Positions 16,031 to 21,534 of a stretch of DNA of 25,315 nucleotides are shown piece after piece. Below the pieces are notes generated by a model. That model saw only the letters and a list, made by a program, of their open reading frames with translations. It did no database searches and was not told the origin of the DNA. Source of the DNA: a virus; the IMG/VR virus record IMGVR_UViG_3300031758_000526, positions 1 through 25,315 of that record. One strand, 5' to 3'. How positions within the stretch are numbered: the first letter of the stretch is position 1; each line of letters starts with the position of its first letter. The translations under genes and the position numbers were made by a program.

Positions 16031-18267
16031 TACACTTCTTTTAAATAGTTAATAATAGTTCTCCTGGTCACATTCAGCAGTTCTGCCAGTTCCGTTCTGT
16101 TGAAGTCAGGATTGATCTTGTGAACTGCTAATGTCTTCTCCTTATTGGATGCTCCTTGCATCTCCTTGAGTATTGTTTTCATCGTTTGAAATTCACTGCT
16201 CTGGATCTTTATCTTTTTAGCCATATTGATAAAGTACTTGCTGAGCCTTTCAGCCTTCAAAATACTATCCTCTGAGATGTTCAAAACATTGCTCAGATAA
16301 ATATTCCCGGAATCAAAATAATAGCAGTCAAGTACATGAATAAGCAATGCAAAGCGTGGAATGTAGCTCTTTTGCTTTGGAAGCATACTCTTCATGTACT
16401 CATTCTCATCATTGCTGTTCTGTATTTCAGTGATCTCATTGAATATTCTTTTCCATTGCTCCTTTGCTTCAGGTGAGAATTTTGCGATTAAAGACTGTAT
16501 CTCCATATCGAAGTCATAATCTATCACCTTATCCTTTATCGTTCGATATAGCTTAATAATGAAAGCCTCAAACCATTCAAGAGCTGTTTGGTCCATCTCA
16601 TTATCATTGTATCCTTCGACATCTAAGTGAGGGAAGCAAGTGAGTATCCTGTCAACGAAACCGTTATCCTTATTCTCCTCAGTATAGAACTGATTGAGGA
16701 TGCCGGGCTGAACACCTCCGAGGATAGGGATCACAGGAGATTCAACAAAGGAGCTCTTCGCTGTCTTTCTGTTCAGAGCTATTCCCTTATTGGACCATGA
16801 AGATAGCCAAAACTCAAGATCAGAACCAGCTCTATACTTGTTCATATCTTTCAACCATCCTGCAAGCTCATCCTTGAATACAGCTACAGCATTTTTATTC
16901 TCTTCATGTAGCTCAACCAATGCTTCGATGGTGATATCAGATGCAATGAACTGAGTCTTTGAAGGCTTACTTATCTCCTCAGATACCTCTTTTTGTCCTT
17001 TGTCAAGGGATTGATATTTTTTGAAACGGTCCATCTGATCAATGTATTTCTTGATCTCATTGTTGTTCGCCTTCTGAAGAGGGAATATGACGTTGTTAAT
17101 GTTTGGAGTCTTCCCTACTCCCGGCCTTCCTACCAAAGCAATCCACAAAATGCCAGCCTCAACCCATCCTGTTTTAACCTGAACCTTTATCGAGTTTCCT
17201 ACTATCAATGAAAGCATCCAAAGCATTGAACATCCCATGTAATCAATTGATGAGTTCAGTGTAGTATTGCACTGGATGAGATAGCTCTGTATTGCTTCCG
17301 GGAAGATATCCAAAGGAAACTCCATCATCTGCTGATCTATTTGAATAGTCTCAGGCTGATCTTGTTGTTTCACTATCCTGGTCCCATATCCTTTAAGATA
17401 TACATCCTTTGCAGATGCTGAGAAATCTCCATGATGGTACCGGTATGTGTATGCTTGGAATGGATTGATAGGAGTCTCATGAGGATAATGAGTGCCTGTG
17501 CTGAACAGGTACATCAGCCCACTATCATCATAGATATATCCTGAATGCTCTGAAGATGCTCCATGCCTTCTGATTATCTTTTTGCCTCTGATGGATCTTA
17601 TTATCTCGAACTCGTCATGAACAATATCCCAAACATTATTCTTGTTGTTGAAGTCAGCCCATGGAGTGATCTCCTGCTCATTGTATTCTGTTTTCGGCTC
17701 TTCTATCTTTATAGGCTCTTTGTAATCGTACATCCTGCAGATGCTCAGGAGCACCTCCCGATCTTTAAGAGATACTTCCTGAACTGCTGTATATCCGTTC
17801 TTTGATACTCTTTTGGTATAGATGAACACATATCCTCCGGTACCTCTTGTTTCAATGATGGCTTCCTTGTGACCTTTAAGCTTTGCGAGTTTCTTATTAC
17901 CTTCGATCTGCTCACATCGGTATAGGATATGGTACCCGTTATTGATCGTTTTATAGATGACAAACTTCTCCTCGAAGTCTGCAATATTATCACATAGCAA
18001 AGAGTAGAATTCATTCCAAAAGTCCTGCTGGTCCTGAAGAGTTGGAAGTATCTTCAGATCAATATCAACTACTTCCAACCCATTAAACCCTGTGACTATA
18101 CCATAGCCTTTGGTAGTTGGATCATGATATACAAAAGCAAACTCCTCTTTACTGAATGCTTTTGTTTGATTATCCTTCCAGGGATGATTCGGTCTTTTCC
18201 CCTCACCGATACAGATCAGTGAGAATCCACTGTCGATCAGTCTGTTTAAATGCGTTAGCTCTATCAT
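16030..18267 (-). CDS. Replication protein: primase-polymerase domain plus DUF3987-type helicase
   Basis: 745 aa from ATG 18267 (an upstream TTG lies in the leader RNA and is rejected). An N-terminal prim-pol-like domain shows SLICIGEGKRPNHPWK, Asp68/Asp70 in GLEVVDIDLK, His113 in NNGYHILYR, then IETRGTGGYVFIYTK. The centre is a DUF3987-like ATPase: Walker A GRPGVGKT (380-387) and a Walker B-like FKDELAGWL (Asp466/Glu467). The C-terminus ends in a helix-turn-helix, FNRTELAELLNVTRRTIINY. It very likely starts and unwinds replication. It lies directly after the iteron origin and a promoter, and the HTH could bind the iterons; this link is inference. Confidence 0.85.
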   Translation of the reverse strand: MIELTHLNRLIDSGFSLICIGEGKRPNHPWKDNQTKAFSKEEFAFVYHDPTTKGYGIVTGFNGLEVVDIDLKILPTLQDQQDFWNEFYSLLCDNIADFEEKFVIYKTINNGYHILYRCEQIEGNKKLAKLKGHKEAIIETRGTGGYVFIYTKRVSKNGYTAVQEVSLKDREVLLSICRMYDYKEPIKIEEPKTEYNEQEITPWADFNNKNNVWDIVHDEFEIIRSIRGKKIIRRHGASSEHSGYIYDDSGLMYLFSTGTHYPHETPINPFQAYTYRYHHGDFSASAKDVYLKGYGTRIVKQQDQPETIQIDQQMMEFPLDIFPEAIQSYLIQCNTTLNSSIDYMGCSMLWMLSLIVGNSIKVQVKTGWVEAGILWIALVGRPGVGKTPNINNVIFPLQKANNNEIKKYIDQMDRFKKYQSLDKGQKEVSEEISKPSKTQFIASDITIEALVELHEENKNAVAVFKDELAGWLKDMNKYRAGSDLEFWLSSWSNKGIALNRKTAKSSFVESPVIPILGGVQPGILNQFYTEENKDNGFVDRILTCFPHLDVEGYNDNEMDQTALEWFEAFIIKLYRTIKDKVIDYDFDMEIQSLIAKFSPEAKEQWKRIFNEITEIQNSNDENEYMKSMLPKQKSYIPRFALLIHVLDCYYFDSGNIYLSNVLNISEDSILKAERLSKYFINMAKKIKIQSSEFQTMKTILKEMQGASNKEKTLAVHKINPDFNRTELAELLNVTRRTIINYLKEV

Positions 18268-18350
18268 ACAAAAATAAAAATCCACCCTTTCGAGGTCGTG
18301 CAACTCTACTCAGGTGGATCATAAATATCCTATTGTCCGCACGACTGGAC
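18268..18350 (-). ncRNA. Candidate structured 5' leader RNA (pseudoknot plus U-tract) of the primase gene
   Basis: The first 80 or so bases after the promoter hold two perfect 7-base inverted repeats that interleave. GUCGUGC (18345-18339) pairs with GCACGAC (18301-18295), and AUCCACC (18319-18313) with GGUGGAU (18286-18280). The order a-b-a'-b' is an H-type pseudoknot. A local GUCC:GGAC hairpin (18350-18347 and 18338-18335) presents GUCGUGC in its loop. GGUGGAU is followed by UUUUUAUUUUU and then the ATG. It could be a terminator-like attenuator, a translation switch or an independent small RNA. No known family is recognised. Confidence 0.55.
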
Positions 18351-18353
18351 TAT

Positions 18354-18384
18354 CAAATATACAAAGAATTTAAATACCTGCAAA
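18354..18384 (-). promoter_or_regulatory. Bacteroidota-type promoter of the replication operon
   Basis: On the minus strand TTTG (18381-18384) is followed by exactly 19 bases and TATATTTG (18354-18361), an exact match to the TTTG-N19-TAnnTTTG consensus of the Bacteroidota primary sigma factor. The expected start, about 18348, falls on the first bases of the structured leader. It would drive the primase-helicase and the genes behind it. Confidence 0.75.
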
Positions 18385-18392
18385 TTCTTATT

Positions 18393-18576
18393 TTTTCACA
18401 CCATTTTCACACCATTTTCACACTAATTTTCACACCTGAGAGCCTTGTAACTTATTGAATATCAAGCCTACTACGAGCAATTTTCACACTTTTCACACCT
18501 ATTTTGAAACTTTACTTTTTTTTTATAGGTATACCCCTCTATTTTTAGGTGTGAAAAGGTGTGAAAGGTGTGAAAA
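18393..18576. repeat. Iteron array TTTTCACACC, candidate replication origin
   Basis: Nine copies, 10 bases each. Forward: 18393, 18404, 18415 (T last), 18427, 18481 (T last), 18490. Reverse (GGTGTGAAAA type): 18548, 18558 (G last), 18567. The first four are 11-12 bases apart, on one helix face. The two groups form a long imperfect inverted repeat round an AT-rich core (18501-18545, with a T9 run). Iterons next to a replication gene, with an easily melted core, are the usual signature of a theta origin. An operator array for a phage regulator is the alternative. Confidence 0.8.
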
Positions 18577-18578
18577 GT

Positions 18579-19032: not shown

Positions 19033-21534
19033 TTATAGAATGTCAAATAATGTAGGCACATTTACTTTATACTCGATAGCTTTCAAGTAATAAAGACCAT
19101 CATCATAATATTCAGGATTCAATTCAGTTGAAACAGCTTTTCTATTCATTTCTATTGCTTTGTATGCAGTTGAAAAAAGACCTCCAAAAGGATCATCGAT
19201 CAAATCTCCGGGCATTGTAAACCTATTAATAAGTCTTTCAATTAGATCAAGCTGCAATGGACAGATATGCTTTTCCTTCTTTCTGTTCACCTGATTTGCG
19301 TTCAGGGTTAGCATACGATTAATATCAGTCCAGACCATTTCTGAATTTGAATGATTCGGTAAGGTCATAAATAATGCGCTTAGCTTTTCCTGTTCTTCAA
19401 GTGTTTCACAAATGTTCAGATGCTCTTTGAATGAATATATTTTTTCAGAGTTATGTTTTTTCCAATATCCAACAATTCTATCTACATCCATTTGAAGAAG
19501 CTCTTTTGAAGAAAAGAATCTATTACCGTCACTTTTCCAGTATGCGTGTGCATCTAATTGCCAATTAGCTCTTGTGTATTCTTTTTTTGTCTTTGTGCAT
19601 GGCTCATCTGCATAAGCATTATTTGATTCGGTAGGTGCTTTCCTGAATAACAAAATGTATTCAGGTAAACCCACGCCCATCTTTGTCGCATCTTTACATT
19701 GTTCGGACCATCCTAAACGGTAGGTTTGATTATTCTCACGAACGACATCTGTTGTAACTGTGATCTTTCCGATGAGATAAAAGCCATGCTTAATAAAATG
19801 AGCTACTGTTTTTCCGCTAAAATCATCAATCGTTGTAAATGATGTGCCATTTTGATAACTGTAACGGATTCGATCTTTCACATGGATAGCTGCAATTTTG
19901 CCCGGTTTTAAAGTTCTCAAAAGGTTAGGAGTTAAAAAGTCCATCTGTTTAAAGAACTCATCATTTCCATGATTGTGACCCATGTCATTATAGTTGTCAG
20001 AATATTCGTAATGATCCCCGAACGGAATTGAAGTCAGGATCATGTCAGAATAGTTGTCCGGTAGTTCCTGATGAATTACTACCGTATCTTCATTGAATAC
20101 CGTACATCCTGCAATTTGAGAACTTCTACGGTTGTTAAAAATTTGTCTTTTCATATCGCTTTTTATTTTATCTGTATTAAGGCCGTATTCACGTACCAGG
20201 TTAATCATTTCAGTTTGTAGTTCAATGTGGTTTTTCCACTTTTCTTTTAGAGCTTTCAATACATCCTGCTCATTCTGGGTATAGATGGCATAAACATTTA
20301 CCTCTTCGGTTTGCTTAAATCGGTAGCATCTATGAATTGCCTGAATGAAATCATTGAACTTGTAATCAATTCCGACAAAGATCATGTTATGGCATGAATG
20401 CTGAAAGTTGCATCCGGATCCTGCGATCTTAGGTTTTGAAGAAAGAATCTGATATTTTGAATGCTTAAAGTCAATTAGTAGATTCTCCTTTTCTGCATTC
20501 GTTTGTGATCCGTAGACTGATTTAATATTGAACGATTTAAATTTACGTTCAATAGTATTTCTTTCAGCTTCCAAATGATGCCAAAGAATCCAATTCTTTT
20601 CTGATTCTTTTTCAACTATCTCGAATGCTTTATTAACTCGAAGATCAATCGACTCTGACTTTTCACGGCTAACATCTACAAGGCTCTTTGTATTGTCCTT
20701 AAATAATACTCTTTCACCTCTCTTATTAAATATTTCGCCATCTGTCAAATTCTCAACCAGGATTTCATTGAAGTTCAATTTAGGAAGTAGGTATCCTGTG
20801 TCATCGTAACCAAGATCGGAAGGCTTGTTAATGAACACCGCCCAAGTAGATACCCATTTCCAAAACTCCTCTTTTTTATTCGGGTAAAGCGTAAGATGAC
20901 CAGCTTTCGTTGAATCTCTTTGAAAAAATCGAGTAAGCGCATGACCTCGATCAATGACCCCTAAATAATCTGCGTAATTCAATATCTCAATAAAATCATT
21001 CGGGGTAGGAGTTGCAGTTGCAACAAATCTGTAATTAACGCTACTGAAATGCTTTAAAACGTAGTTCGTTGTTTCTGTTTTGAGATTCCTAAGAATTGAA
21101 GCCTCATCAAAGGAAACACCTCCGAAATAATCTGCTTTTACGTCACCTTTCCTGATTCTTTCATAGTTGGTAACGTAGATGGTATTAATGTCAACTGAAT
21201 CAATTACAGAATCATCTGTTATATACTTGATCTGTTTTTCAGGATATAAAAATTTAAGATCATCTTTAAACTCACCGACAACGCCTAACGGCATCACAAT
21301 TAGAAAAGGCTTATTTGTAATCTTTGAAACCTGAACAGCTAATTCAAGTTGCATCATTGTTTTACCCAAACCAAAGCTTGCAAAAATAGCCCTGCGCCCT
21401 CCAGCTATTGACCAGTGAACAATATCCTTTTGGTGAGGTAGTAACTTTTCATTGATATCTGAAATTTCAATTTCAGTTCCGTAATCTTTAGCGATCACAA
21501 TTTTAGATTCTAAAAATTCATGATAATCTTTCAT
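19033..21534 (-). CDS. SNF2-type helicase fused to a DNA methyltransferase
   Basis: 833 aa, two enzymes in one chain. Residues 1-450 form an SNF2/DEAD-like helicase: Walker A GLGKT (55-59), DEAS (143-146), TATPT (173-177) and motif VI QAIHRCYR (398-405). Residues 480-833 form a beta-class-like methyltransferase: catalytic TSIPF (501-505) followed by GDHYEYS, motif X HICPLQLDLIERLI, and motif I DPFGG (781-785). The canonical (D/N/S)PP(Y/F) is changed to SIPF, a variant I recall in phage helicase-methylases. It could modify phage DNA against host restriction or help replication. It is AT-richer than the structural genes. ATGA coupling with the micro-gene upstream. Confidence 0.85.
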   Translation of the reverse strand: MKDYHEFLESKIVIAKDYGTEIEISDINEKLLPHQKDIVHWSIAGGRRAIFASFGLGKTMMQLELAVQVSKITNKPFLIVMPLGVVGEFKDDLKFLYPEKQIKYITDDSVIDSVDINTIYVTNYERIRKGDVKADYFGGVSFDEASILRNLKTETTNYVLKHFSSVNYRFVATATPTPNDFIEILNYADYLGVIDRGHALTRFFQRDSTKAGHLTLYPNKKEEFWKWVSTWAVFINKPSDLGYDDTGYLLPKLNFNEILVENLTDGEIFNKRGERVLFKDNTKSLVDVSREKSESIDLRVNKAFEIVEKESEKNWILWHHLEAERNTIERKFKSFNIKSVYGSQTNAEKENLLIDFKHSKYQILSSKPKIAGSGCNFQHSCHNMIFVGIDYKFNDFIQAIHRCYRFKQTEEVNVYAIYTQNEQDVLKALKEKWKNHIELQTEMINLVREYGLNTDKIKSDMKRQIFNNRRSSQIAGCTVFNEDTVVIHQELPDNYSDMILTSIPFGDHYEYSDNYNDMGHNHGNDEFFKQMDFLTPNLLRTLKPGKIAAIHVKDRIRYSYQNGTSFTTIDDFSGKTVAHFIKHGFYLIGKITVTTDVVRENNQTYRLGWSEQCKDATKMGVGLPEYILLFRKAPTESNNAYADEPCTKTKKEYTRANWQLDAHAYWKSDGNRFFSSKELLQMDVDRIVGYWKKHNSEKIYSFKEHLNICETLEEQEKLSALFMTLPNHSNSEMVWTDINRMLTLNANQVNRKKEKHICPLQLDLIERLINRFTMPGDLIDDPFGGLFSTAYKAIEMNRKAVSTELNPEYYDDGLYYLKAIEYKVNVPTLFDIL

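Follow-up and report, generated by a model that had tools for sequence, protein, structure and literature searches.

A putative attenuator leader RNA of two kissing hairpins upstream of early genes in Bacteroidota phages

The primase-helicase gene in a 25,315-nt stretch of viral DNA (IMG/VR record IMGVR_UViG_3300031758_000526; the whole stretch is referred to here as the window) is preceded by a leader predicted to fold into two hairpins whose loops pair with each other, the second hairpin having the shape of an intrinsic terminator. The fold and its family are well supported, and the regulatory outcome is inferred. Our main reading, to which we assign a probability of roughly 55%, is that the region encodes a phage attenuator leader of ~70-80 nt. 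It probably represents an undescribed class of RNA brake, in which the same fold is written with different letters in many Bacteroidota phages, and the likeliest role is that of a self-limiting, gene-private brake on early genes. The predicted fold, its conservation by covariation, the order of promoter, terminator and ORF, and a third copy of the loop sequence in some relatives are all read from sequence.

Architecture of the leader

The minus-strand leader has the layout TTTG-N19-TATATTTG-ata-GUCC-a-GUCGUGC-GGAC-(14 nt)-GAUCCACCU-gaguaGAG-uu-GCACGAC-CUC-gaaa-GGGUGGAUU-uuuAUUUUUGU-AUG (Table 1). A perfect TTTG-N19-TATATTTG promoter adjoins hairpin 1 (GUCC/GGAC), the loop of which, GUCGUGC, is complementary to GCACGAC, the apical loop of hairpin 2. 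Hairpin 2 takes the shape of an intrinsic terminator through its lower stem (GAUCCACC/GGUGGAU) and the U-tract that follows, and a gap of 12 nt separates this stem from the primase-helicase ATG at 18267. The downstream gene product matches Pfam Prim-Pol (9.2e-7) and DUF3987 (1.2e-54), and the PHROG annotation DNA helicase and primase. The sigma-A box of Flavobacterium psychrophilum, TAnnTTTG, occupies -12 to -5 (PMC9723704), and transcription is therefore expected to start near 18349, in the first bases of hairpin 1. This hairpin has only 4 bp in the window, and its first base lies at or before the expected +1. The order of promoter, stem-loop with U-tract, and gene is present in the window and conserved in relatives.

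Table 1. Positions of the leader elements and of the downstream gene in the window
Feature	Position	Strand	Basis
-33 element TTTG, Bacteroidota sigma-A type promoter	18381..18384	-	sequence; 19 nt from -7 box
-7 box TATATTTG (TAnnTTTG consensus)	18354..18361	-	sequence; PMC9723704 consensus; same box before relatives
Hairpin 1, 5' arm GUCC, at or adjoining expected transcription start	18347..18350	-	sequence; flanking stem in relatives
Hairpin 1 loop, kissing strand a (GUCGUGC)	18339..18345	-	sequence; covariation
Hairpin 1, 3' arm GGAC	18335..18338	-	sequence
Single-stranded A/U-rich linker, hairpin 1 to hairpin 2, 14 nt	18321..18334	-	sequence
Hairpin 2 (putative terminator), lower stem 5' arm b (GAUCCACCU)	18312..18320	-	sequence; shuffle score; covariation
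Internal loop 5' side GAGUA (AGUA/GAA, fits loop E / bulged-G consensus)	18307..18311	-	sequence; relatives
Hairpin 2, upper stem 5' arm GAG	18304..18306	-	covariation
Hairpin 2 apical loop, kissing strand a' (GCACGAC)	18295..18301	-	sequence; pattern set; covariation
Hairpin 2, upper stem 3' arm CUC	18292..18294	-	covariation
Internal loop 3' side GAAA	18288..18291	-	sequence; relatives
Hairpin 2, lower stem 3' arm b' (GGGUGGAUU)	18279..18287	-	sequence; shuffle score; covariation
U-tract after stem (UUUUUAUUUUU), intrinsic-terminator-like	18270..18280	-	sequence; U-tract conservation in alignment A1
Primase-polymerase / DUF3987 helicase gene, 745 aa	16033..18267	-	Pfam, PHROG

An earlier note on this DNA had described the region as interleaved inverted repeats, and its reading is correct base for base: GTCGTGC and GCACGAC interleave with ATCCACC (18319-18313) and GGTGGAT (18286-18280), GTCC and GGAC flank the first 7-mer as the claimed hairpin, GGTGGAT leads into the T-rich tail ahead of the ATG, and the leader begins at the start expected from an exact Bacteroidota promoter. 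The interleaved pairing of the pseudoknot proposed there stands; a simple H-type form was dropped for two kissing hairpins, hairpin 1 and the upper stem of hairpin 2 (GAG/CUC, next to the AGUA/GAA internal loop) both being conserved.

Taken alone, the window's sequence supports this layout only narrowly. The best score for the interleaved a-b-a'-b' order with a T-run, within the 150 nt before the ATG, was 32.9, as against a maximum of 32.5 in 300 dinucleotide shuffles, a comparison that leaves out hairpin 1, the promoter and conservation. The nested-only fold of the leader is unremarkable (z -1.44) because the signal sits in the non-nested pairing, and the loop of hairpin 2, at more than 8 nt, is too long for a simple terminator scan to detect the hairpin. 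With the covariance model R1 the window's leader scores 56.5 bits, the training set including a near-identical copy.

An in-frame TTG at 18303, within the terminator loop, could lengthen the primase ORF into the leader (757 aa); conservation argues for the ATG at 18267 as the start and for RNA structure in the region of the TTG. Directly upstream of the promoter lies an iteron-like array (18393-18577) of TTTTCACACC-type 11-mers on a phase of ~11 nt (18393-18437, 18479-18500), with inverted copies AGGTGTGAAAAG at 18547-18577; these are likely origin or repressor sites. Elsewhere in the window, an 833-aa protein (19033-21534) combines a Helicase_C helicase and an N6/N4 DNA methylase in a single chain, and its apparent homologue in two relatives (L086, L082) is itself preceded by a kissing leader.

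Covariation of the paired segments

Conservation of the fold was examined in an alignment of 41 leaders made with MAFFT (A1) and headed by a copy of the leader in the window. Across the proposed pairs 88.5% of cells are paired, with 209 double-sided changes as against 66 in shuffled data, and when the partners were shifted by 1-3 bases at most 47% of cells remained paired. The kissing helix is paired in 93.9% of cells, with compensatory changes in all six pairs; the lower stem of hairpin 2 has changes on both sides in all nine of its pairs; and the upper stem is 97.5% paired, with compensatory changes in two of three pairs and the third invariant. The rows of A1 were picked for strong kissing, which inflates the percentage for that helix, and leaves the swap and reversed-pattern tests described below unaffected. 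Hairpin 1 was weakly aligned by MAFFT (59% paired); taken sequence by sequence, at least four flanking pairs are found in 52 of the 59 kissing leaders among the matches listed in the pattern search below, as against ~26% in shuffled flanks. At four A1 columns of the U-tract, T is nearly invariant, though a T-run was absent from the search pattern. The window's leader family thus has a covarying loop-loop helix between hairpin 1 and the terminator apical loop.

Compensatory changes across relatives were the test that the earlier note had set for its proposal, and it is clearly passed. Its suggestion of a structured, regulated leader (an attenuator or switch) before the primase-helicase gains support from the covariation and from the terminator stem with U-tract that separates the promoter from the gene in nearly all relatives, regulation itself being inferred.

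Relatives of the leader in viral genomes

Viral contigs contain several hundred relatives of the primase, and the regions upstream of these show the same order of elements in sequences otherwise unlike that of the window. A descriptor scan found dozens of leaders. Almost every one shares the strand of its gene, follows a TAnnTTTG box and has an ATG shortly after it; 37 plus-strand matches score at least 40, where local shuffles gave none. In this set the linker between the hairpins has a median of 17 nt. Linker length was also tried as a ruler for the full fold; the correlation was negative, probably since linker and stem share a descriptor border, and it was not used.

Any descriptor enriches for the very features written into it, and three tests that escape this circularity were therefore added. 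Among 1303 promoter sites in the window and 20 related phage genomes, 10 real sites score at least 48, compared with a mean of 0.1 after the 5' and 3' hairpin halves were swapped. Viral contigs were then searched with a pattern that contained only the promoter, GAGTAG and CGAAA, with no kissing information and no T-run, which gave at least 77 distinct viral sites. Among the matches listed, complementarity of the 5' region to the loop of hairpin 2, scored as loop-loop stacking and counted from 10 kcal upward, is present in 59 of 77 sites, as against 16% with swapped partners and 2 of 51 among the matches listed for a reversed-pattern control; the raw counts for the pattern and its reverse are both lower bounds and not comparable. 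An ORF starts just downstream in 57 of these 59 kissing leaders. Finally, a covariance model without the kissing helix found leaders outside its training set, at L203:7725 (84.9 bits), in a Psychroflexus prophage (L240, 76.9) and in Flavobacterium phage 11b (L242, 51.6), all three of which have matching kissing loops too. Coincidence is ruled out by the swap tests, the reversed-pattern control and the covariation.

The AGUA/GAA internal loop of the window recurs in L132, L135, L155, L026, L036:5516 and L240:14651, as well as in the pattern set. Only one near-identical relative of the window's exact leader was found, and a nucleotide search of the leader against known phages returned short chance matches only. 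In the next closest primase relatives (L003-L010, 61-64% identity), coding sequence runs up to the primase start without a leader there, and the leader therefore comes and goes between close phages. A variant layout is seen just before the primase start in L042-L048 (AATCAGG...GTTATACGTTA...CCTGATTTTTTT...TAACGTATATAA), with a T-run after the first helix and a second helix that reaches into the region before the ATG.

Hosts and downstream genes

The leader is present in two isolated phages, Flavobacterium phage 11b and Croceibacter phage P2559S. In host genomes it is nearly absent: the pattern had 2 matches in 199 Flavobacteriaceae genomes, one of them a prophage, as against 5 for the reversed control, and the covariance model found only that same prophage in 148 Bacteroidota genomes, both searches being directed at the AGUA/GAA branch only. 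On these two methods, capture of a host leader by phage was rejected.

Representative downstream genes encode DnaD-like and replication-initiation proteins, DUF6291 proteins, primases, ERF, a DUF3127 protein, and HNH/NUMOD4 and GIY-YIG endonucleases. Among the matches listed for the pattern set, about two thirds of leaders stand before replication genes and about a fifth before homing endonucleases, shares that were sorted by eye from the first residues of the products. In some genomes more than one leader occurs, each with a different loop (L012 has three). A single sequence type, with GTTACGG, GTTGCGG or ATTGCGG loops, precedes different HNH/NUMOD4-type endonuclease genes (L249, L262, L264, L275, L277, L303, L358 and L203:7725), as if leader and homing endonuclease travelled together. 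Kissing leaders also occur at L137:9461 and L132:10381; the sequence downstream of the former, GGTGGCGGAATTGGTAGACGC..., resembles the start of a tRNA-Leu gene and not a protein gene.

A third copy of the loop sequence in one branch

In 23 of the 59 kissing leaders among the matches listed, the loop sequence recurs directly before the start codon (a''), for example as GTTGCAG-ATG, GTGCAG-taag-ATG and GGGCAG-taaat-ATG. Nearly identical orthologous genes have GTGCAG/CTGCAC/GTGCAG in one phage and ATGCAG/CTGCAT/ATGCAG in another, and a similar coordinated shift of a, a' and a'' is found at a second gene; these joint changes mean that the three segments are kept in step. The window has a and a' only, GTCGTGC not being repeated on the leader strand. 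Outside the one branch, a third copy was found in 5 of 80 leaders of a wider set (~2 expected), and it was rejected as a general feature of the family.

Proposed mechanism and alternatives

In the attenuator that we propose, the host sigma-A polymerase would start at hairpin 1 and would then meet an intrinsic terminator, formed by hairpin 2 and the U-tract, between the promoter and the replication gene. Many transcripts would end at this point, each freed as a compact RNA that is folded at its two ends, and the remainder would read through as primase-helicase mRNA. Kissing of the hairpin 1 loop with the terminator apical loop would unite the two hairpins in a single fold, and this fold would determine how strong the terminator is. 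In the branch with three copies, a'' would cover the region before the start codon, and hairpin 1 and the ribosome-binding region would be alternative partners for the terminator loop; the device would then also gate translation, with hairpin 1 as a competing decoy that frees the start codon. The presumed purpose is self-limiting, gene-private control of DNA-replication and homing-endonuclease genes. In the absence of transcript, termination or reporter data, we only infer that termination occurs, which way kissing affects it and what purpose the leader serves.

It is quite possible, if short of probable, that these leaders form a regulatory RNA class of a categorically new kind in Bacteroidota phages. 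Each would be a switch that carries its own address, 6-9 nt of freely chosen sequence. This address would be written two or three times: in the hairpin 1 loop, in complementary form in the terminator loop and, for one branch only, in the ribosome-binding region. The switch would couple transcription termination and translation of early genes, each gene having a private, non-cross-reacting address.

The same short RNA could instead act in trans, an alternative that we consider unlikely without setting it aside. The terminated leader would be a small RNA, and its loops would kiss further copies of this leader as they are being transcribed, in copy-number control or superinfection immunity like that of P4 CI or plasmid antisense RNAs, with the private loop as the source of specificity. 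A compact RNA folded at both ends, the replication genes downstream, and loop sequences that differ between the leaders of one genome and between relatives are all consistent with such a role, and the order a, a', a'' parallels seqA, CI and seqC of P4 (PMC4825925). Intramolecular kissing, however, would strongly compete with pairing in trans, homing endonuclease genes would be odd targets for immunity, and further copies of the loop target near other genes on the same contigs were not enriched (8 vs 6.9 expected).

More doubtful is an antiterminator role for the kissing fold, which would arise ahead of the 3' arm of hairpin 2 and either hinder the terminator or modify RNA polymerase in the manner of put RNA, allowing the gene to be read. 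With the segments in the order a, b, a', b', a could pair with a' before b' is made, and the fold stands at the transcript 5' end, adjoining early promoters. Against this, all the helices can coexist, the kissing helix with the terminator stem included, and each is conserved, as are the lower terminator stem and the U-tract; no alternative pairing that would exclude the terminator is common to the leaders inspected.

A metabolite riboswitch or protein-binding leader, with a ligand acting on the kissing fold, is improbable. Kissing loops and internal loops of the AGUA/GAA kind are common in ligand- or protein-binding RNAs, but no nucleotides are conserved beyond that internal loop, which many members lack, the loops and stems vary freely, and there is no Rfam match. 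A replication primer or origin RNA is the least credible alternative and can hardly be sustained: the promoter does abut the array of five TTTTCACACC-type repeats, four of them on the ~11-nt phase directly upstream, and its inverted copies, but the same leader also precedes homing endonucleases and other early genes that do not adjoin a primase, and the tie to the origin fails.

Comparison with known systems

In Rfam release 15 the window has no match at the gathering threshold and no credible match at a relaxed threshold, and none was found in the loci of 14 relatives; a known RNA family was thereby ruled out, in line with the earlier note, which knew of no family with this layout. No published description of such a leader was found in the open literature searched, and one elsewhere is not excluded. 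Recognition through variable loops controls replication in ColE1 RNA I/RNA II and in the antisense-induced attenuation systems of pT181 and pIP501, the latter by attenuating transcription of a replication gene. Those systems act between two RNAs from opposite strands, whereas both loops of the phage leader lie in one sense-strand RNA. The put RNA of HK022 and EAR of Bacillus are structured RNAs at the transcript 5' end that act on RNA polymerase; they have conserved sequence, and a terminator stem with U-tract is not a defining part of them.

In satellite phage P4, the CI RNA comes from an untranslated leader that precedes the replication genes (alpha, a primase-helicase) and is regulated by premature termination, with one segment complementary to the upstream seqA and the downstream seqC (PMC4825925). 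The window likewise has its leader before a replication primase-helicase (Prim-Pol and DUF3987). The window has no segment with complements on both of its sides. Such a segment occurs in 23 of the 59 listed relatives, the three-copy branch having the same order a, a', a''. By contrast, P4 CI is cut out of a longer leader, in an enterobacterial host. In the phage leader the antisense segment is the terminator apical loop and has as its upstream partner the loop of the 5'-terminal hairpin, and a third copy, where present, sits at the start codon; the two leaders are not known to be related in sequence. At the IsrK locus of prophage Gifsy-1, a single promoter and a terminator give rise to a short RNA and also to a read-through mRNA with identical sequence, and translation is controlled by pairing among segments of the RNA itself (PMC4825925). 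The phage leader is likewise proposed to yield two such products from one promoter and terminator. IsrK differs in being a single Salmonella locus of other structure that activates translation of an antiterminator pathway, and kissing of a 5' hairpin with a terminator loop is not described for it. By the features compared, the leader appears to belong to none of P4 CI, IsrK and the plasmid antisense systems; it resembles the first two in logic and the last in using kissing loops.

Significance

Searches by primary sequence miss this leader RNA, in which almost no nucleotide is conserved and only the pairing logic is kept. Where three separate copies change in step at orthologous genes, they provide unusually direct evidence of selection on RNA pairing. 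Since the leader is widespread in Bacteroidota phages, the isolates 11b and P2559S among them, the proposed attenuator can be tested at once. If it is correct, the family would offer a ready-made set of mutually orthogonal attenuators, and these phages would throttle their replication and homing-endonuclease genes without a protein repressor.
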